Part shown: in pieces, positions 18,581-27,754 of the stretch
Layout of the letters: each line of letters begins with the position of its first letter
Position numbering within the stretch: the stretch's first letter is position 1
Source of the DNA: an uncultured Bacteroides sp.
GTDB lineage: Bacteria; Bacteroidota; Bacteroidia; Bacteroidales; Bacteroidaceae
Length of the DNA stretch: 64,000 nt
NCBI GenBank assembly: GCA_902388495.1
Contig: CABMPP010000003.1
Coordinates: 186,001-250,000, forward strand
Reading direction: 5' to 3'
Translations under genes and position numbers: made by a program
Notes under the pieces: generated by a model
The model's input: the letters and a program-made list of their open reading frames with translations, nothing else
What the model was told of the DNA's origin: nothing
Databases searched by the model: none

Positions 18581-18892
18581 ATGAATAAAATTATTCAAGA
18601 TAGATTGGATGCCTTGAAGACGCTTTGCAAACGTTATAGAGTGAAGAGCCTTTATGTATTCGGCTCGGTCAATACTCCTCATTTCAATGATAAGAGTGAT
18701 ATCGATTTGCTGATAGATTTTGAGCCGGATGTCAGCATCGAGGAATATACAGACTCGTTTTTTCTGTTGCGCGAGAAGCTCACGGAGCTTTTCAAACGCA
18801 AGATTGACCTTGTGACACGTCGTTCACTCTCCAATCCGTTCTTTATAAATGATGTAGAACAATCTAAACAACTACTGTATGGGGAGTCGTAG
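18581..18892 (+). CDS. MNT-type nucleotidyltransferase (MntA-like antitoxin)
   Basis: The 103-residue protein has the minimal nucleotidyltransferase core: GS at 28-29 (YVFGSV) and the metal-binding pair D40-x-D42 (SDIDLL), with a third strand KIDLVTRRSL. In known MntA/HepT pairs this enzyme adds AMP to a tyrosine of the HEPN toxin and so inactivates it. The next gene is a HEPN protein overlapping by 14 nt, as expected for such a pair. The functional assignment rests on motif and neighbourhood. Confidence 0.85.
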   Translation: MNKIIQDRLDALKTLCKRYRVKSLYVFGSVNTPHFNDKSDIDLLIDFEPDVSIEEYTDSFFLLREKLTELFKRKIDLVTRRSLSNPFFINDVEQSKQLLYGES

Positions 18893-19229
18893 CTTGAGGA
18901 AATACCTATATGATATTCAGCAATCGATAGAGTCGATTAATGAGTATTTGGGCGAGAAAAGAGATTTCTTTGCTTACGAGCAGAACAAATTGCTCCGACG
19001 TGCTGTAGAGCGTGAGTTGGAGATTATAGGTGAAGCCGTCAACCATTTGCTTGAGTTGGATAATACGATAGCCATTGATAATGCACGCCGAATTGTGGAT
19101 TTGCGTAACTTTGTAATTCATGGTTATGATAAGGTGGATAATGTGATAATATGGGGTGTCGTTAGTAAAGACCTTCCTAAACTGAAGGAGCAGGTAGATA
19201 TATTGATGGCACAAACTACTATTATTTAG
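18879..19229 (+). CDS. HEPN-domain ribonuclease toxin, DUF86 family (HepT-like)
   Basis: The 116-residue helical protein contains the HEPN active-site motif R-x4-H-x-Y at R76, H81 and Y83 (RNFVIHGY). Proteins of this family are RNases controlled by an adjacent MNT nucleotidyltransferase, which modifies the motif tyrosine. All three key residues are intact, so the toxin is probably active. Its start overlaps the end of the upstream MNT gene, and a second MNT gene begins 23 nt downstream, which is unusual. Confidence 0.87.
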   Translation: MGSRSLRKYLYDIQQSIESINEYLGEKRDFFAYEQNKLLRRAVERELEIIGEAVNHLLELDNTIAIDNARRIVDLRNFVIHGYDKVDNVIIWGVVSKDLPKLKEQVDILMAQTTII

Positions 19230-19252
19230 CGTCTAAGTAATAAGTAAGAGAT

Positions 19253-19546
19253 ATGGAGACTACACAAGAAATCATTGACCGTCTGCGAGCATACAAGGAG
19301 CAGTTCGCCGACAAGTATGGCATCGAGCAGCTGGGGCTGTTCGGCAGCGTGGCGCGGGGGGAGCAGGACGACAAGAGCGACATAGATGTTGTCATTAAGT
19401 TGAGCCGTCCCAGTTTCTTCACTTGCTTTGGTATTCAGGAAGAGTTGCGGAAGCTTTTCCGTCGTAAGGTCGATTTAGTAACCCTGCACGAGAACATGTT
19501 CCGCAGTTTTCGTCAAAACCTTGAACGTGATGCGATATATGTCTGA
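19253..19546 (+). CDS. Second MNT-type nucleotidyltransferase, no clear HEPN partner of its own
   Basis: The 97-residue protein carries GSVARGE (G31-S32) and the D43-x-D45 pair (KSDIDVVI), with RKVDLVTLHENM as the later strand. The active-site residues appear intact. It differs clearly in sequence from the MNT gene at 18581. Only a 25-codon open frame follows (19530-19607), so a downstream HEPN gene is missing or lost. It may act on the HEPN protein just upstream, or be a remnant of a second module. The gene is more GC-rich than the HEPN gene. Confidence 0.8.
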   Translation: METTQEIIDRLRAYKEQFADKYGIEQLGLFGSVARGEQDDKSDIDVVIKLSRPSFFTCFGIQEELRKLFRRKVDLVTLHENMFRSFRQNLERDAIYV

Positions 19547-19691: not shown

Positions 19692-19782
19692 TATTTTTAG
19701 ACAGAAGAACAAAAGAACATATCAGAAAATATAAGCTATAGTATATTATGAATTTGTTCTTTTGTTCTTCTGTCTAAAAATA
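19692..19782. repeat. Perfect 28-bp inverted repeat with AT-rich loop
   Basis: Arms 19692-19719 (starts tatttttagacagaagaaca) and 19755-19782 are exact reverse complements over 28 bp, separated by a 35-nt AT-rich loop. It lies in the 400-nt gap between the second MNT gene and the HU-like gene. It is long for a terminator and could be a non-autonomous mobile remnant or a stable structured RNA. No coding sequence is seen in it. Confidence 0.85.
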
Positions 19783-19854: not shown

Positions 19855-19900
19855 AGAGAGTGTCAAACCTGAAATACTAATCTCAGTTTTGACACTCTCT
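19855..19900 (-). terminator. Terminator hairpin of the HU-like gene
   Basis: Arms of 18 nt, agagagtgtcaaacctga (19855-19872) and its reverse complement at 19883-19900, pair with one mismatch around a 10-nt loop. The hairpin lies 49 nt after the stop of the minus-strand HU-like gene. Confidence 0.65.
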
Positions 19901-19948: not shown

Positions 19949-20449
19949 TTATCCAAACGGATTCTCGTTCAGGTCGCCGTCCGGCCCTACGCTGCCGCCG
20001 GGTGTGGAGCCGCCGCCACTGCCGCCGGGCGTACCCGTGCCGTCCAGGTGACTGATGGAGTTGACATTCGTCCACGTCACATCCTCGCCGATGAGGGCGC
20101 GGGTGACGGTGTTTCCTTTGCGGCGCGATTCGGGGACGAAGCGCACGCGGGTGCCGGCGATTTGGTTGGCCGTCACCTTCTCGGCGCTGTCCACGCCCTT
20201 GCCGGTGGAGACGCAGGTGTAGTAGAAGGTGCCCAGACCTTCGACGTGCACGGTGCGGCCGGTGTTCATACTCGTCCCCAGCACCAGGCCGAGGGCTTCG
20301 AGGGTGGCTTTGGCGTCGGCGCTGCTCACGGTGGAGATGAGCGCTATCTGCTTGCAAAGCTCGTCCATTTCGATGGGCTTGCCCACGCTCACGGCTTGGG
20401 GGTGCCACATCTTGGACATCTTTTTGTAAATAGGTTTGAAAAATGCCAT
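19949..20449 (-). CDS. HU-like DNA-binding protein with glycine-rich tail
   Basis: The 166-residue protein has an HU/IHF-like fold at about 15-130: helices (KPIEMDELCKQIALISTVSS), AKATLEALGLVLGTSMNTGR, and the strand GRTVHVEGLGTFYYTCVSTG. It then ends in a Gly/Pro/Asp-rich tail (GGSGGGSTPGGSVGPDGDL). Bacteroides genomes carry many divergent HU-related proteins of this kind, and their DNA targets are mostly unknown. It follows the fimbrillin-like lipoprotein gene in the same direction. A four-unit 22-bp-periodic palindrome array lies between the two genes, 53 nt before this start codon, and could be its regulatory site. Confidence 0.9.
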   Translation of the reverse strand: MAFFKPIYKKMSKMWHPQAVSVGKPIEMDELCKQIALISTVSSADAKATLEALGLVLGTSMNTGRTVHVEGLGTFYYTCVSTGKGVDSAEKVTANQIAGTRVRFVPESRRKGNTVTRALIGEDVTWTNVNSISHLDGTGTPGGSGGGSTPGGSVGPDGDLNENPFG

Positions 20450-20502
20450 ACTCTATGGTTTTTAAGTGAAACATGCCCTGAGGACCTCTGTGGAGGGGGT
20501 GG

Positions 20503-20587
20503 GACACTTCTAAGAAGTATCACTGATACTTGTGCTAAGTGTCGGGGATACTTCTTAGAAGTGTCGAGGATACTTGTGCTAAGTGTC
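20503..20587. repeat. Four-unit 22-bp-periodic array of imperfect palindromes
   Basis: Four 19-nt units start exactly 22 bp apart at 20503, 20525, 20547 and 20569. Units 2 and 4 are identical (gatacttgtgctaagtgtc). Unit 3 is gatacttcttagaagtgtc, and unit 1 is its exact reverse complement. Every unit is a palindrome of the form GAYACTT-n5-AAGTRTC, so each can form a short hairpin in RNA or a two-fold protein site in DNA. It lies between the fimbrillin-like gene and the HU-like gene. The 22-bp step would put all units on the same face of the helix. Confidence 0.9.
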
Positions 20588-20644
20588 GGTGAGGCTCTCC
20601 GGTGTCTGTCCGGCTGCGCTTCGGTTGTCAGGATTTATTTAATT

Positions 20645-22945
20645 TTATTTGTTGTTCGGGACGGTGTGGCCTTCCTGGCAATCGGTCACGGTCGTGTTCT
20701 TGCCGCCGCCGATGCGGTTGTCGCTGCCTTCGCTCGATGAGGCTGGGCTACCATCCACCGTGGCTTCGTTGGCGCAGCAGGAATATACTGTGCCGTCCGT
20801 GGTGTTGCTGCCCACCAGGCCGCCGGTATAGTTCTCGGTGCCGGAAGCGCCGGTGACGCTGCCTGCTGCCACTGCTGCTGTCGATGTATTGCGGCTGGTG
20901 TGCAGGGTGCCGCTACTGCTACCTGCGAGCCCGCCGGTGTAGCATTTTGTGGCAGCTGTTCCGCCTGTAACCGTGCCCTCATTGGTGCAGCCGATGATTT
21001 CGTTATTGGTACTGAGAGCGGCTACCAATCCGCCGGTATAACTGCTGTAGCCGCTGGTCTTTCCTCCGGTCACGTCTCCTGTGTTCCGGCTGTTGGAGAG
21101 GGTGGTATAACCTCTCACATATCCTATCAGTCCGCCGGCATAGCAATCCTTGCTGGCATTGTCTCCGATGCCCACCTTGCCATGGTTCCGGCAGTTATGG
21201 ATGCTGACAGGGGAATCGATGTTGCCCACTGCATATCCTGCTACTCCGCCGACATAGCTTTTGCTGTCTGTAGCTCCCGCAATCTCGGCATGGTTGGTGC
21301 ACGATTCAAGTCGGCTGCTGATACCTGCATATCCCACCAGTCCGCCGGCCTTGCTGCTGGATGTACCTGCACTTCCGCCTTGCACCTTGCTGCCTGCCTC
21401 TACCGTGCAGCCGGACAGGGTTATGTCTTGGCTCTGTCCTATGAGGCCACCGGTGTTGGAGGTATTGCCGGTAGTTTTCCCGCCGCTGACGGTGCCTTTG
21501 TAGCTGCATCCGCTGATGGGGGTGTTTCTGGCATATCCTACCAGTCCGCCGGTGCTGCACTCGGCACTGCCGTTATAGCTGTTTGTTACCGTGGCTGCTA
21601 CGTGGAGGTTGCGTATAGAGGCATTACTGATGTATCCGAAGAGCCCGAAATTCGCACTGCTTCCCTTCAATGTTCCGCTGATGGTGTGTCCGTTGCCGTC
21701 GAAGTTTCCACTGAACGTGTGTGAGTAGTCTGTTCCTATCGGCGTCCATTCTGTTGTAGCTATATTGATGTCGGTGGTGAGGCGGAAGTAGCTGTTGTTA
21801 TAGTTGTTTCCTCCATTGACTTGTGTTTGCAGGTACTTCAATTGTGCGGCGGTGGAGATGATGTAGGGGGATGTTTGGCCGCCGTCGCCGGAGGCGAAGG
21901 CGGTGGCAGCCTGGGTGCTGTTATCCAAAGTCTGTGCCGTGGTGCTGCTTTCCACTTTCGTCCATTTGCTGTTGTCGTTGTCGCTTATCGTTGCGGTATA
22001 TCGCATGCCTGCCACGTATGCTTTGCCTATCTGCGGCGTGGTGTAGCGGTAGGCGGTTCCGTCGTTGCAGCGCACGATGAGGGTGAAAGTCTTACCGGTG
22101 AGGTCGGTGGGGAATATCATCAGATGTGCGGTGAAGCCGCTTTCCGTCCAGGTGATGCCGTTCAGCGCGAGGCTGGTGGAGCCGGGAACGTAGGTGCTGC
22201 CACTGATGTACATCTTATTATAGAAGCCTGCCCCGGCATCATCCACGCTAAGTATAAGGAGGGCGGGGGAGTTGTCCGGTGCTGTGGAGGGTGTGTAGCC
22301 TGTGGGGCGTCCGGTTATCTTCACCGTCATCATGGCGGTGAGGTGGTGGAAGGCGAGGTCGTTGTTCGTGGGGAGGGCATCGATGTCTGCCACGGTGGCG
22401 GTCATGTAGTCGTAGGCGGCGATGTGGTCATAGTTATTGTCGCCTGTCTGTATCTGCCCGTCCATGCTGAGGGAGATACTATTCCAGTAGTTGGCAGGTG
22501 TTTTGTCGCTCAGCAAGGCTGCCGCTGCGGGGTAGATGGCTTTGGCTACGCCGGTGATGGGGGTGCTCGGGGTAGTGGTGGCGGTGAAGGTGGCGCTCTT
22601 TCCGTCACCGGAGATGGAGGAGGGGTTATCTATCTTGTATTCGATGCCGTCGCTTTGACCGCTGGCCGGGTATAGCTTGAAGGCGTCGCCCACGGTCCAC
22701 TTCACGATGACGCCGGGGGCGGGGGTGCTGCCCGTCTCGTCGGTGTAGCCCAGGCGGGTTTGCGGGGTGTTGCTTCCGGCATCGCCGTCGGTGGCAAGGG
22801 TGGCGGTAAGGGTGATGGGGGTGCCTGCATCATCGCCGACGGCTGTCGGGACGGGCGTTTCGTTGCTGCATGCAGCGGCAAGGGCTAGCAAGAGGGCTGT
22901 GGCAGCCGCTGCTTGCGCAAGGGGTAGGAAATGGAGTTTCTTCAT
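20645..22945 (-). CDS. Fimbrillin-like GLUG-repeat lipoprotein, copy 1
   Basis: From ATG 22945 (MKKLHFLPLAQAAAATALLL) the product has about 766 residues. An upstream ATG at 22957 is in frame, but the inner start aligns with the second copy at 24675-26903. A lipobox ends in LALAAACSNE. A fimbrillin-like domain fills roughly the first 340 residues (VKWTVGDAFKLYPASGQ; FHHLTAMMTVKITG). The C-terminal half is built of GLUG repeats, seen as recurring TGGLVGY/AGGLIGY units. Such lipoproteins are surface or pilus-associated adhesin-type proteins. It is preceded by an 86-aa gene and followed by an HU-like gene, and is very similar in layout to the second copy. Confidence 0.88.
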   Translation of the reverse strand: MKKLHFLPLAQAAAATALLLALAAACSNETPVPTAVGDDAGTPITLTATLATDGDAGSNTPQTRLGYTDETGSTPAPGVIVKWTVGDAFKLYPASGQSDGIEYKIDNPSSISGDGKSATFTATTTPSTPITGVAKAIYPAAAALLSDKTPANYWNSISLSMDGQIQTGDNNYDHIAAYDYMTATVADIDALPTNNDLAFHHLTAMMTVKITGRPTGYTPSTAPDNSPALLILSVDDAGAGFYNKMYISGSTYVPGSTSLALNGITWTESGFTAHLMIFPTDLTGKTFTLIVRCNDGTAYRYTTPQIGKAYVAGMRYTATISDNDNSKWTKVESSTTAQTLDNSTQAATAFASGDGGQTSPYIISTAAQLKYLQTQVNGGNNYNNSYFRLTTDINIATTEWTPIGTDYSHTFSGNFDGNGHTISGTLKGSSANFGLFGYISNASIRNLHVAATVTNSYNGSAECSTGGLVGYARNTPISGCSYKGTVSGGKTTGNTSNTGGLIGQSQDITLSGCTVEAGSKVQGGSAGTSSSKAGGLVGYAGISSRLESCTNHAEIAGATDSKSYVGGVAGYAVGNIDSPVSIHNCRNHGKVGIGDNASKDCYAGGLIGYVRGYTTLSNSRNTGDVTGGKTSGYSSYTGGLVAALSTNNEIIGCTNEGTVTGGTAATKCYTGGLAGSSSGTLHTSRNTSTAAVAAGSVTGASGTENYTGGLVGSNTTDGTVYSCCANEATVDGSPASSSEGSDNRIGGGKNTTVTDCQEGHTVPNNK

Positions 22946-22953
22946 GGCGTGTG

Positions 22954-23214
22954 TCATTGTTCTATGGTGAGTATATCGTTTATCAAGTCTTCCAGGTCGC
23001 TGGTGGTGGCGCTGTTGTAGTTGCGTCGGCCGGGGGAGGAGTAGGTTCCGGTGTTACGGAGGCTGAATGCGTCGGCACCGCCGAAGTTGCTGGCGCTCAT
23101 CACGCTGCCTTCCATTTCCATCTTGATAACTTCTACCCGGGGTGGGGAGTAGGGGGCGCGGGCATTGTCCGTCGTCTGTAGTCTTTCTGCTTGTTTTGCT
23201 CTTTCTGTTTTCAT
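22954..23214 (-). CDS. Small conserved protein of the fimbrillin cassette, copy 1
   Basis: The 86-residue protein has a variable N-terminus and a nearly invariant remainder compared with the copy at 26908-27171: SPPRVEVIKMEMEGSVMSAS, a Gly/Ser/Asn section (GGADAFSL), SPGRRNYNSATTSDLEDL and the end DILTIEQ. It has no signal peptide or membrane helix. Its stop TGA overlaps the upstream ATG of the lipoprotein gene. I recognise no named family. The conservation of a short gene directly before each fimbrillin-like gene suggests it works with that product or its regulation. Confidence 0.8.
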   Translation of the reverse strand: MKTERAKQAERLQTTDNARAPYSPPRVEVIKMEMEGSVMSASNFGGADAFSLRNTGTYSSPGRRNYNSATTSDLEDLINDILTIEQ

Positions 23215-23618: not shown

Positions 23619-24464
23619 CTACAAGGCGGCAATTTGTTCGGGAGTGAACCCGGTGCTTTGGGCGATGATGTCGGCAGAGACACCAGCGGCTTTCAGGTTT
23701 CGGGCAACTTCTTCCTTGCCTTCCTTTCGTCCTCTCTGTTCTCCTCTCTGTTCCGCTTTCTTTTCCGCAAATTCCAGCACCGCGAGGTTATCGCGGTAAA
23801 TCTTAATACTTTCATCGTAGCGCAAGCGCTCCTCTTTCGTCATGGAGGCAATATCTGTGATTTGCTCCAGTTCCTTGAACACAGCCATATAGGGCTGGAA
23901 AGGAATGTTCTTGAATGTTTCCATATACTTCAGTGTATAAATCCAACGGTCAAAATTCGTATCACATTCCGCCTCGTTCTTTTCGAAGCGCGGCAGTTCG
24001 AGAAAGACCTGGCGAAGCTTGTCGCAAAACAGCTCGCCCGTGTCGCGGTCGGCAAGGATAACGTCGGTGCGGAACTTGCCCGTCTCGTTGAAGCAGAAGT
24101 TCATGAAGAACACGCCATAAACGGCATGCACCTTGAACTGCCAGTTGCTTCCTCTCTCGCCCTGTCCGGCGATGGCGCGGGCGAGGTAGTAGAGGGAACG
24201 TTCCTTGAAGTTCTCTTGTTCCTTGTACTGCATTTCCACGATGATGGGTTCGTCGTCCGTCGTGGTGCAGTACACGTCGTAGATGGTGCCCCGTCCTTCC
24301 GCCACTTCGGGCAGCAGCTCGGGGTTCATGTACTTCACGTCCGTTATCTCTTTCTCCCCTTCGAGCAGGCTGTTCAGAAAGCTGATAAGCAGTCTCTTGG
24401 AGACTTCCTGGCCGAATATCTTCTTGAAGCCGAAATCCGAGAAGGGGTTGATGAATCGTTCCAT
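23619..24464 (-). CDS. Rpn family recombination-promoting nuclease / PD-(D/E)XK transposase-like protein
   Basis: The 281-residue protein begins MERFINPFSDFGFKKIFGQE, the hallmark start of this family. It has the nuclease core with IYDVYCTTTDDEPIIVEMQY (D-x10-ExQ type) followed by the KERSLYYLARAI helix. The C-terminus has a charged helix with AEQRGEQRGRKEGKEEVARN, which is variable in this family. Known Rpn proteins are DNA endonucleases that stimulate RecA-independent recombination in E. coli. It lies exactly between two copies of the fimbrillin cassette, in the same direction as both. Confidence 0.92.
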   Translation of the reverse strand: MERFINPFSDFGFKKIFGQEVSKRLLISFLNSLLEGEKEITDVKYMNPELLPEVAEGRGTIYDVYCTTTDDEPIIVEMQYKEQENFKERSLYYLARAIAGQGERGSNWQFKVHAVYGVFFMNFCFNETGKFRTDVILADRDTGELFCDKLRQVFLELPRFEKNEAECDTNFDRWIYTLKYMETFKNIPFQPYMAVFKELEQITDIASMTKEERLRYDESIKIYRDNLAVLEFAEKKAEQRGEQRGRKEGKEEVARNLKAAGVSADIIAQSTGFTPEQIAAL

Positions 24465-24674: not shown

Positions 24675-26903
24675 TTAGTTGCCTGCCGGGACGGTGTGGC
24701 CTTCCTGGCAATCGGTCACGGTCGTGTTGTCGCCGCCGCCGATGCGGTTGTCGGTGTCTGTGCCCGAAGCATCGGCTGCTTTGCCCGCCACCGTGGCTTC
24801 GTTGGTGCAGCAGGAATATACCTCGCCGTTCGTGATGTTGTAGCCCACCAGTCCGCCGGTAAGGTTCTGGTGGTTAGTGGAAGATTCGGTTAAACGGCCG
24901 GCTGTCACTATTGCTGTCGATGTATTGTGGCTGGTGTGCAGGATGCCGGAATTGTTGACACCTACGAGCCCGCCGGTATGGCAGTCTTGGGCTGTTCCAC
25001 CGGTTACCGTGCCCTCATTGGTGCAGTTGATGATAGTATTGCTGCCGTTGTAGCCCACCAGTCCCCCGGTCCTGCTGTAAGAAGCAGCTGTTCCTCCGGT
25101 CACGGCTCCCCAGTTCCGGCAGTTGTTGATGTTACTGGGATTACTACCGCCGCTGGGTGCATATCCTACCAGTCCTCCGGTGTAGCTGTTTCTACTTTCA
25201 GCCCCCTCGATGTCGGCATAGTTGGTGCACGACTCAAACTGGGTGTTGGAAAGTACATATCCTACCAGCCCGCCGGTATGGCTGTCGGAGGAGGTTGTAC
25301 TGCCGCCCGTCACCTTGCTCCCTGCTTCTACCGTGCAGCCGGATAAGATGGTATTTTGACATTGTCCCACCAGTCCGCCGGTGTAGTTCTCATTGGAGGT
25401 GGAGGTGCCTGCAGTTTTTCCTCCGGTGACGCTGCCTTTGTAGCTGCATCGGTAGAGAGTGTGTCGGCCGTAGTCGGCAGTGAAAAATCCCGCCACTCCT
25501 CCGGTGCAGCATTGGGAGGCGTCGTCATAGTTGTTCGTCACCGTGGCTGCTATGCGCAGGTTGCGTATGTTACTATCGACGCATCCGAAGAAGCCGAAAT
25601 ATGGATTGTTGCCTCTCAGTGTTCCGCTAATGGTGTGGCCGCCGCCGTCGAAGCTTCCTTGGAATCTGTTGCTGTAGTCTGTTCCTATTGGTACCCACGT
25701 CACGTCGTCCGCTATCTTGATGTCGGTGGTGAGGCGGTAATCGTTGTAGCTCCCGTCATTGACTTTCTTTTGCATCAGCAGCAGTTCTTCGGCGGTGGAG
25801 ATGAGGTAGGGATCATCATCGTAGCCGGTGCCGGAAGCGAATTTATCGGCTATTTGGGTGCTGCCGGTTAAGGTTTCTGTTGTGCTGCTTTCCGTCCACT
25901 TGTCTCCGGTTATCGTTGCGGTGTATCGCATGCCTGCCACGTATTTCTTTCCTATCTGCGGAGTGGTGTATCGGTAGGTGGTGCCGTCTTTGCACAGCAC
26001 GCTGAGGGTGAAGGTGTTGCCCGATAGATCAACAGGGAATATCATCAGGTGTGCGGTGAAGCCGTTGGTGCCCCAGGTGATGTTTTCCAGCCGTAGGCTG
26101 GCAGAGCCGTAGGTAGGTAAACTATTGTCGGTGGACATTTCGCTGTAGAAGTATGCGCCCTCATCATTTGCGCTGAGGGTGAGCTGCACGGGGGAGTTGT
26201 CGGCAGCATCGGGGCTTGTGACGGGCGTATAGCCCGAGGGTTGTCCGGTTATCTTCACCGTCATCATGGCAGCGAGGTGGTGGAAGGTGAGGTCGTTGCC
26301 TGCGGGGAGGCTGGAGGCATCGGCCACGTCGGCCACCATGTAGTCGTAGGCAGGGGTGTGGGCGTAGCTGTCATCGCCGGTTTGTGTCTGCCCGTCCATG
26401 CTGAGGGTGATATTACCCCAGGAGGTGGCAGGGGTTCCGTCGTTCTTCAGGGCTGCCGCTACGGGGTAGATGGCTTTGGCTTCGCCGGTGATGCTGCCGG
26501 TACTTGTGGTGGCGGTGAAGATGGCGGTCTTGCCTTCGCCTGTAATGGCTGCGGCGTCCTTTATCTCGTATTCCATGCTGCCGCTCGTGCCCCTGGCCGG
26601 GTATAGCTTGAAGGCATCGCCCACGGTCCACTTCACGATGACGCCGGGAGTGGTGGCACTACTTTCGCTCTCGTGGGAGAGGCGGGTATCGGGGGCATTG
26701 CCGGTGTCCGTGTCATCGGCCAGGGTGGCGGTGAGGGTGGTGGGACTGCCGGGGTCGGTGCCGTCGGCAGGCGGCAGGGTTTCGTTGGTGCATGCGGTGA
26801 GCAGGGCGCAGGTCAGCATGGACGGTAAGGCGCAGGCCAGCATAGGCAGCAGAGCTTCTGCCATCATGGGCAGCAGGGCGGTGTATAGGTTTCGTTTCTT
26901 CAT
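24675..26903 (-). CDS. Fimbrillin-like GLUG-repeat lipoprotein, copy 2
   Basis: The 742-residue product starts MKKRNLYTALLPMMAEALLP and has a lipobox before TNETLPPADG. A fimbrillin-like domain occupies about 40-330 (VKWTVGDAFKLYPARG; LTFHHLAAMMTVKITG). The rest is GLUG repeats (NYTGGLVGQ, SHTGGLVGY, CHTGGLVG). It matches copy 1 over its whole length, with divergence mainly in the repeat region. The last 20 or so residues (DNRIGGG, TTVTDCQEGHTVP) are nearly the same in both. It starts 4 nt after the stop of the small cassette gene, in a likely three-gene operon led by the HTH regulator. Confidence 0.88.
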   Translation of the reverse strand: MKKRNLYTALLPMMAEALLPMLACALPSMLTCALLTACTNETLPPADGTDPGSPTTLTATLADDTDTGNAPDTRLSHESESSATTPGVIVKWTVGDAFKLYPARGTSGSMEYEIKDAAAITGEGKTAIFTATTSTGSITGEAKAIYPVAAALKNDGTPATSWGNITLSMDGQTQTGDDSYAHTPAYDYMVADVADASSLPAGNDLTFHHLAAMMTVKITGQPSGYTPVTSPDAADNSPVQLTLSANDEGAYFYSEMSTDNSLPTYGSASLRLENITWGTNGFTAHLMIFPVDLSGNTFTLSVLCKDGTTYRYTTPQIGKKYVAGMRYTATITGDKWTESSTTETLTGSTQIADKFASGTGYDDDPYLISTAEELLLMQKKVNDGSYNDYRLTTDIKIADDVTWVPIGTDYSNRFQGSFDGGGHTISGTLRGNNPYFGFFGCVDSNIRNLRIAATVTNNYDDASQCCTGGVAGFFTADYGRHTLYRCSYKGSVTGGKTAGTSTSNENYTGGLVGQCQNTILSGCTVEAGSKVTGGSTTSSDSHTGGLVGYVLSNTQFESCTNYADIEGAESRNSYTGGLVGYAPSGGSNPSNINNCRNWGAVTGGTAASYSRTGGLVGYNGSNTIINCTNEGTVTGGTAQDCHTGGLVGVNNSGILHTSHNTSTAIVTAGRLTESSTNHQNLTGGLVGYNITNGEVYSCCTNEATVAGKAADASGTDTDNRIGGGDNTTVTDCQEGHTVPAGN

Positions 26904-26907
26904 GGCG

Positions 26908-27171
26908 TCATTGTTCTATGGTGAGTATATCGTTTATCAGGTCTTCCAGGTCGCTGGTGGTGGCACTGTTGTAGGTGCGTCGGCCGGGGGAGGAGTAGGT
27001 TCCGGTGTTATGGAGACTGAATGCGTCGGCACCGCCGAAGTTGCTGGCGCTCATCACGCTGCCTTCCATTTCCATTTTGATGACTTCTACCCGGGGTGGG
27101 GAGTAGGGGGCGCGGCGGGTGGCGTGGATGCTGTCCGTCGTCTGTACTTTTTCTGCTTGTTTTGCTTTCAT
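26908..27171 (-). CDS. Small conserved protein of the fimbrillin cassette, copy 2
   Basis: Chosen start MKAKQAEKVQTTDS at 27171 gives 87 residues and aligns with the 86-aa copy at 22954. A longer in-frame start at 27222 would overlap the upstream regulator gene and has no counterpart in copy 1. The conserved body is SPPRVEVIKMEMEGSVMSAS followed by NFGGADAFSLHNTGTYSSPG and the end DLINDILTIEQ. It is soluble, with no signal peptide and no known family. The first residues differ between the copies while the rest is almost identical, so selection seems to act on the C-terminal two thirds. Confidence 0.8.
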   Translation of the reverse strand: MKAKQAEKVQTTDSIHATRRAPYSPPRVEVIKMEMEGSVMSASNFGGADAFSLHNTGTYSSPGRRTYNSATTSDLEDLINDILTIEQ

Positions 27172-27196
27172 AATCATATATATTAAAGGTTTATAA

Positions 27197-27754
27197 TCAG
27201 TCTTCCTCTCTGAACACCACATAGCCCGGCGGCATCTTTCCGGTGGGCTCGCCCAACTGCTGAATCCATTGCGTCAGTTCCTCTCCTTCGGGGGCGCCGT
27301 TCAGCTTCTGGCGCAGGCGTTGCTTGGTCTTTATCACGCTGTTGGGGCTGACGCCGGTGCTTTCGCCTATCTGCCGGTTTCTGAACCCCAACTTTACGAG
27401 GAAGCAGGTCTGCTGCTCGGCTATGGAGAGGCGTGTGTGCACGTGCTCTTCCAGCTCCTTCATGAAACCGGGGTAGTGGGTCATCATGAAGGAGAGTATC
27501 ATCTTGTAACTCTGCTTTTTCCCGGTGGGCAGCAGGGAGGTGCCGTCGTGCTGTGCGCATATTTGCACCATGGGGCATTCGGCTTCGTGCTGTTTCAGTT
27601 GTTGTTGCAGGCGCATCTTTATCAGTGCGTCCGTGCGGCGGCGTATCTTCGCCCACCTCCAGGCGGGCAGCAACTGTTGCGCGATAAGTGCAACCGTACA
27701 TCCGCCAAAAAAGAAGGCGGCAGCCAGTAGTGTGTATTCTATGTTCATTGTCAT
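27197..27754 (-). CDS. Membrane-anchored LuxR/sigma-4-type HTH regulator of the fimbrillin cassettes
   Basis: The 185-residue protein has one N-terminal membrane helix (about 6-27, YTLLAAAFFFGGCTVALIAQ), a basic coiled region, and a C-terminal helix-turn-helix (RNRQIGESTGVSPNSVIKTK). The HTH resembles the one ending the TPR regulator at 15931. It lies 25 nt upstream of the small cassette gene and probably heads the operon. Its own upstream region and that of cassette copy 1 share a palindromic box, so it is a good candidate activator of both. Copy 1 has no regulator of its own. Confidence 0.82.
   Translation of the reverse strand: MTMNIEYTLLAAAFFFGGCTVALIAQQLLPAWRWAKIRRRTDALIKMRLQQQLKQHEAECPMVQICAQHDGTSLLPTGKKQSYKMILSFMMTHYPGFMKELEEHVHTRLSIAEQQTCFLVKLGFRNRQIGESTGVSPNSVIKTKQRLRQKLNGAPEGEELTQWIQQLGEPTGKMPPGYVVFREED

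Follow-up and report, generated by a model that had tools for sequence, protein, structure and literature searches.

A four-unit palindromic array upstream of a Bacteroides HU-HIG gene as a putative site for the encoded protein

Four palindromic units, repeated at an exact 22-bp step, lie 53 bp upstream of a gene for an HU-HIG protein in a 64,000-nucleotide stretch of Bacteroides DNA (hereafter the window), and an array of the same kind precedes every close orthologue of this gene that we examined. We lean slightly towards the explanation that the HU-HIG protein encoded downstream recognises this array as its own cognate site on DNA, such that its putative binding would be autoregulatory in cis and copies dispersed through the genome would serve as sites in trans. 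HU proteins are mostly seen as weakly sequence-specific, or near sequence-blind. Because the arrays of related proteins often differ in spelling, and copies of the same spelling occur elsewhere in the same genomes, our comparisons of sequence suggest that each HU-type protein may read a DNA address of its own.

The array and its link to an HU-HIG gene

The units begin at positions 20503, 20525, 20547 and 20569, and each is an exact match to GAYACTT-n5-AAGTRTC, a pattern whose two 7-bp halves form a palindrome around five central nucleotides. No strand is assigned to them. Unit 1 (GACACTTCTAAGAAGTATC, 20503..20521) has the centre CTAAG and unit 3 (GATACTTCTTAGAAGTGTC, 20547..20565) is its exact reverse complement, and unit 2 (GATACTTGTGCTAAGTGTC, 20525..20543) has the centre GTGCT, or AGCAC on the HU strand, and is identical to unit 4 (20569..20587). 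These relationships and the strict step had been described in an earlier, sequence-only reading of the window, and all were confirmed on the sequence. With up to two mismatches permitted, the pattern occurs four times in the window, every time inside the array, and the same scan on 100 shuffles of the window gave a mean of 0.61 matches and a maximum of 3. Apart from the array, a scan of the window for periods of 10-60 returned two weak repeats, with periods of 12 and 24. No Rfam family matches the window at gathering scores.

The gene beside the array (19949..20449, minus strand) encodes 166 amino acids and had been called HU-like, an assignment upheld by scores of 65.1 bits for Pfam HU-HIG (PF18291; cut-off 26.2) and 96.6 bits for NCBIfam HU_rel (TIGR01201; cut-off 68.6). 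The protein exceeds both curated cut-offs and is filed here as HU-HIG. An HU fold is predicted for it (pLDDT 78.8, pTM 0.57), and the best Foldseek matches to the predicted model are HU proteins and 4fmr, the solved HU-HIG/HU_rel relative BVU_2165 (E 2e-4 to 1e-3, query TM 0.37-0.46). Our search of the open-licence PMC literature found no description of a DNA site for the HU-HIG/HU_rel family. Counts of HU-HIG genes at E 0.001 range from 9 to 36 per genome and include some ordinary HU, because the same search matches 9 of 14 control genomes, E. coli among them; a phylum-wide search at 1e-15 gave matches in 12 of 118 genomes.

The spacer between array and HU start codon (20450..20502, minus strand) is C-rich beside the array, and its length of 53 bp is kept in many orthologues. 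On the far side, a motif, TTGTCAGGATTTATTTAAT (20625..20643, plus strand), recurs by eye at a distance of roughly 35-40 bp from several other arrays, whether or not these are HU-linked. The upstream neighbour had been read as an HTH regulator, but Pfam places none beside the array; the gene there (20645-22957, on the minus strand like the HU-HIG gene) encodes a GLUG-repeat protein and has its 3' end facing the array. It belongs to one of two similar-looking pairs (20645-23214 and 24675-27222), each with a GLUG-type lipoprotein gene (770 or 742 aa) that is preceded by a small one (86 or 104 aa); an Rpn/PDDEXK transposase-like gene (23619-24464) separates the two pairs. On the other side, two nucleotidyltransferase genes with a HepT-like gene between them (18581-19546) resemble MntA/HepT toxin-antitoxin modules; they fall under the NCBIfam cut-offs, and PADLOC matches PDC-S09. 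Two inverted repeats were also read from the sequence: a long one with arms of TTTTTAGACAGAAGAACAAAAGAACA and its complement (19694-19780), and GAGAGTGTCAAA / TTTGACACTCTC downstream of the HU gene (19856-19899), which is possibly a terminator.

We defined close orthologues as matches of at least 219 bits and 63% identity, the next match in 99 Bacteroides-genus genomes scoring 155.5 bits. By this definition an array lies upstream of 19 of 19 close orthologues and 0 of 18 more distant HU-HIG loci. The 19 comprise the best locus in each of the 12 genomes among the 99 that have a close orthologue, all with the array; added to these are the gene of the window, a second gene in G009, one in G001 and two in each of G012 and G005. 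The array ends 53 bp from the start codon in nine of these genes, 52 bp in one, 56-57 bp in three and 76-78 bp in six. The connection to HU genes made in the sequence-only reading is supported by these counts, the distance being 52-57 bp in 13 genes and 76-78 bp in the other six.

The association extends to whole genomes. With up to two mismatches permitted, 12 of the 99 Bacteroides-genus genomes have both array and close orthologue, none has the orthologue only, four have the array only and 83 have neither, so that arrays occur in 12/12 genomes with the orthologue and 4/87 without (Fisher 2e-12, uncorrected for shared ancestry). Among 123 Tannerellaceae genomes, two have both, none has the orthologue only and two have the array only, one of these as a single weak pair. 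One further genome outside both samples (G011) likewise has the array and lacks the close orthologue. The reversed pattern, used as a control, gave 0 in every genome among those listed. The seven genomes with an array but without a close orthologue (G004, G011, G027, G078, G103, G163 and G167) are a real gap in the rule that connects arrays to HU genes.

Dispersed copies and their centre types

To survey relatives of the array, the collection genome_contigs, in which each of 84,980 species is represented by a single genome, was scanned for two adjacent units separated by a free linker of 0-20 bp. The scan yielded 27 stretches, 26 of them from records named Bacteroides, Parabacteroides or Mediterranea, and in all 26 of these Bacteroidales stretches the linker is exactly 3 bp despite the freedom permitted. 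The remaining stretch, from Agathobacter, has a linker of 18, looks like chance and was dropped. In the viral collection, there were 0 matches to the exact two-unit pattern. Twelve genomes carry between 3 and 22 adjacent-unit pairs each. A set of 57 arrays was assembled from which end units scoring below 11 were trimmed; it includes near-identical copies, because L025 and L132, once dropped as duplicates, re-entered with differing flanks, and L136 was dropped from it. Four units are present in 34 of the 57 arrays. The outer half-sites are common to the arrays, the 5-nt centre falls into few types and the 3-bp linkers are varied. Among 245 units, strand ignored, the centres are AGCAC (120), ATCAG (36), ATAAG (30), ATAGG (26) and ATGGG (18). 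The conservation of the units is partly a product of selection, because the arrays were found with the pattern, although the search did let in units that deviate at two or three positions.

Arrays do not, however, invariably precede HU-like genes: 15 of 48 distinct arrays are HU-linked, and the rest occupy intergenic gaps beside unrelated genes. In four species an array occupies one shared position between leuA and leuC (L102/L011, L018, L117 and L084/L129). Among 28 scored leuA-leuC gaps, two contain an array and 26, of 3-209 bp, do not (two of 30 loci were unscorable). At one site the centre can differ between species, being AGCAC or ATCAG at leuA-leuC and varying likewise at the gap between coaD and a protease gene. 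Several of these observations favour the most serious alternative, which we consider possible yet unlikely: a dispersed intergenic repeat of the BIME, MITE or minisatellite type, as BrickBuilt is, might have spread and been homogenised by recombination, with the HU gene a frequent or ancestral neighbour and matching centre types the outcome of copying. Arrays adjoin unrelated genes, their copy number varies between species, the leuA-leuC array is present in so few of the scored genomes, and BrickBuilt itself is described as a mobile-like element (PMC4596501).

The centre types of dispersed arrays mostly match that of the HU array in the same genome, as with ATAGG in G010, ATCAG in G006 and AGCAC in G007 and G008. 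Two genomes, G012 and G005, each have two HU genes of different centre type and dispersed arrays of both types, and in G063 the HU array is mixed and there is one dispersed array of each type. Ten genomes with both HU-linked and dispersed arrays provide 25 dispersed arrays for comparison, and in 20 of these the dominant centre type is that of the HU array, against 10.3 when genomes are shuffled (p 0.001). One array (L119) precedes an HU remnant and was counted both ways; without it the match is 18/25, against 8.9 in genome shuffles (p 0.004). The match is weak when shuffled within families (p 0.02, or p 0.06 without the remnant-linked array). The five mismatched arrays comprise one in G039 and four of the five in G001.

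Some array-linked HU genes look decayed: one (L145) contains a stop, the remnant at L119 retains only the start of the gene after the array, and at L006 there is perhaps a trace of an HU gene start after the array. L006 was also considered as a recent copy of an HU locus of the same species, a candidate that was dropped because the BLAST match (86% over 100 bp) covers only the array.

Arrays of other sequence at other HU-HIG genes

Outside the clade of the window protein, 31 of 65 HU-HIG genes have upstream arrays of 22- or 23-bp step and other sequence (25/54 from many genomes and 6/11 from the closed genome G050), and in the other 34 no array was seen upstream. At the same score of 18, arrays occur upstream of 36 of 1336 other genes of G050 (Fisher 6e-27, a value that overstates independence because several of the 65 loci are mutually orthologous). 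HU-HIG upstream regions were searched in 360-bp windows at periods 20-24, 44 and 46, and control upstream regions in 300-bp windows; of the HU genes of G050, just 10 were located by ORF calling in the control count, and four of these have arrays. For all HU-HIG genes, the 360-bp count is 48/83, including 17 of 18 in the clade of the window; the locus missed (L144) was cut short, and its array was seen during upstream inspection.

The motif tracks the identity of the HU protein. Above 80% identity, 30 of 31 protein pairs share a motif, at 70-80% the motif differs in one third of 18 pairs, and below 50% at most 2 of 923 pairs share one. Two proteins of one genome (L198 and L204) are 86% identical over the aligned part and have different motifs. 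Sequence changes in the beta-arm offer a hint as to how this might be achieved. Among proteins that differ by less than 35%, the ratio of arm to body changes is 1.48, 1.48 and 1.24 where motifs differ and 1.10, 0.81 and 0.99 where they are the same; the effect is gone above 35% difference (ratio 0.89, 143 pairs). That the beta-arm is the part of the HU-HIG protein that confers specificity is suggestive only, because the protein pairs are not independent.

A second motif family, that of HU loci L176 and L068, repeats in part the pattern of an HU array accompanied by dispersed arrays. It was found in 7 of 99 genomes. In G076, G004, G078 and G010 it precedes an HU-HIG match by 50-78 bp. Three of these genomes also have dispersed arrays, which are of the same variant as the HU array of the genome (AGTACAAG in G010, ..AGC in G004 and ..AAC in G076). 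In G027, G071 and G102, no adjacent HU-HIG gene appears among the matches listed.

The closed genome G050 was sampled over 2.0 of its 3.36 Mb, chosen to include all 15 HU-HIG matches. This sample contains 88 tandem repeats, with period 22 in 26, 23 in 16 and 11 in 16. Four of six HU-linked motifs (L204, L201, L202 and L198, the second and third sharing one motif) recur away from HU genes, and 60 column-shuffled motif controls gave 0 matches. One array (296975-297425) joins units of two HU motifs. Many array families of G050 have no HU-HIG gene alongside within the part covered. Among them is a multi-copy family of 22-bp repeats, 11-bp based, with the sequence TATACGGAGG (contig C1, e.g. 459786, 789516, 1290027, 1722239 and 1877650), whose arrays precede unrelated genes; in that part, none was seen beside an HU-HIG gene. 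Palindromy is not claimed as a rule for all 22/23-bp arrays, as just 11 of 52 consensus units in G050 reach p<=0.05 in a crude test.

The 52 arrays of G050 with period 21-24, 44 or 46 fall into co-directional gaps (33), convergent gaps (14), divergent gaps (3) and ORFs (2); since ORF calling overlooked the HU gene, two HU-linked arrays are among those scored as convergent. Arrays avoid divergent gaps (3/50, p 0.0004), which is expected of repeats that settle at gene ends and counts against promoter operators as the main role of dispersed arrays. Still, a dispersed repeat predicts neither a constant spacing from the HU start codon, nor the restriction to one clade, nor motifs that are specific to paralogues.

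Half-site reading, a candidate code and known systems

Deviations from the pattern tend not to fall in both halves of a unit. Units that deviate in both halves, at any position, number 29 of 245 against 38.8 expected (p 0.01), and both halves deviate at the same column in 6 cases against 17.3 in shuffles. These counts fit a dimer that reads a pair of half-sites and for which one weak half is more tolerable than both. The same half-site pattern is operator-like, and the arrays might be operators for another DNA-binding protein that controls HU-HIG genes among others, which would also accommodate the seven array-bearing genomes that lack a close orthologue. We find this improbable, because every HU-HIG motif would call for a different regulator, and one that follows HU-HIG identity, and because G050 arrays avoid divergent promoters.

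In some plasmid systems, a centromere-like partition site precedes the gene for its binding protein, and by analogy the tandem sites directly upstream of a DNA-binding-protein gene could play such a part. This is a very remote prospect, given that copies are dispersed, that each genome has many paralogues and that no neighbour family is common to all 11 placeable HU contexts (the choice of ORFs lost the HU gene in 7 of the 18 contexts compared). Finally, although the 7-bp arms of every unit are palindromic around the 5-nt centre, the earlier suggestion of four small transcribed stem-loops in the HU leader is scarcely credible, because compensatory changes are rarer than chance (4 against 12.1, and none of 2000 shuffles gave fewer than were observed), G-U pairs on the HU-sense strand number 15 against 26 C-A, and Rfam offers no match.

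If the HU-HIG protein does bind the array beside its gene, dimers could occupy neighbouring 19-bp units, with one dimer for every two helical turns. At its own gene, occupancy of the array would then result in autoregulation. At dispersed intergenic copies, a local nucleoprotein complex might organise or insulate DNA, or tune expression. HU-HIG paralogues would differ in motif, with protein, motif and dispersed sites changing together. A broader form of this idea, which we put forward only tentatively, is an addressing system of many channels across the Bacteroidales, in which each of many HU-HIG paralogues would use its beta-arm to read a private palindromic code, assembling as a lattice on arrays of 22/23-bp step in cis and on a private dispersed set, while the code changes jointly with its reader.

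If true, HU-HIG proteins would form a family of nucleoid proteins that are addressed by sequence and whose sites are orthogonal to one another. A code specific to paralogues would give a job to the many unexplained HU-HIG paralogues of Bacteroides and would explain the 22/23-nt intergenic minisatellites reported in this group. It would also offer natural pairs of protein and site, as specificity seems to differ between proteins that are 75-86% identical over the aligned part.

The sequence-only reading was aware of no described element with this layout, and this survives for the link to HU genes: in the open-licence PMC literature we found no repeat arrays of Bacteroides or Bacteroidetes linked to HU genes, and 15-mers of the unit match no paper. 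It does not survive for dispersed tandem arrays as such, given BrickBuilt of Porphyromonas gingivalis, and the array is filed neither as BrickBuilt nor as REP. REP/BIME sequences with RAYT carry a GTAG or CGTC tag and often exceed 100 per genome (PMC2817692, PMC3733652). They resemble the present arrays as short dispersed palindromes tied to one gene family and arranged at regular spacing. In contrast, the present arrays have no GTAG/CGTC tag, are few in number, have 3-bp linkers of many sequences and lack stem compensation (4 against 12.1 in shuffles).

BrickBuilt, a MITE/minisatellite with a 23-nt tandem unit and 19 copies in strain ATCC 33277, is the closer relative by description (Klein et al. 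2015, PMC4596501). Its leader and tail bear IS5-like terminal inverted repeats, with the leader kept in 14 of 19 copies and the tail in 13; promoter activity is reported for its segments, and 22-, 23- and 41-nt tandem repeats are mentioned for strain W83. Both elements are intergenic, dispersed tandem arrays of short units that vary in unit number. The 23-nt unit differs from the 22-bp step of the window, although 23-bp arrays do occur at HU-HIG genes of G050. In the accessible part of that report, an HU-type neighbour appears just as an entry in Table 1, where the 84-nt BrickBuilt_14 has a minus-strand gene on one side and PGN_0872, a PF00216 gene on the plus strand, on the other. By this table entry alone, BrickBuilt_14 would fit the rule that an array stands beside an HU gene.
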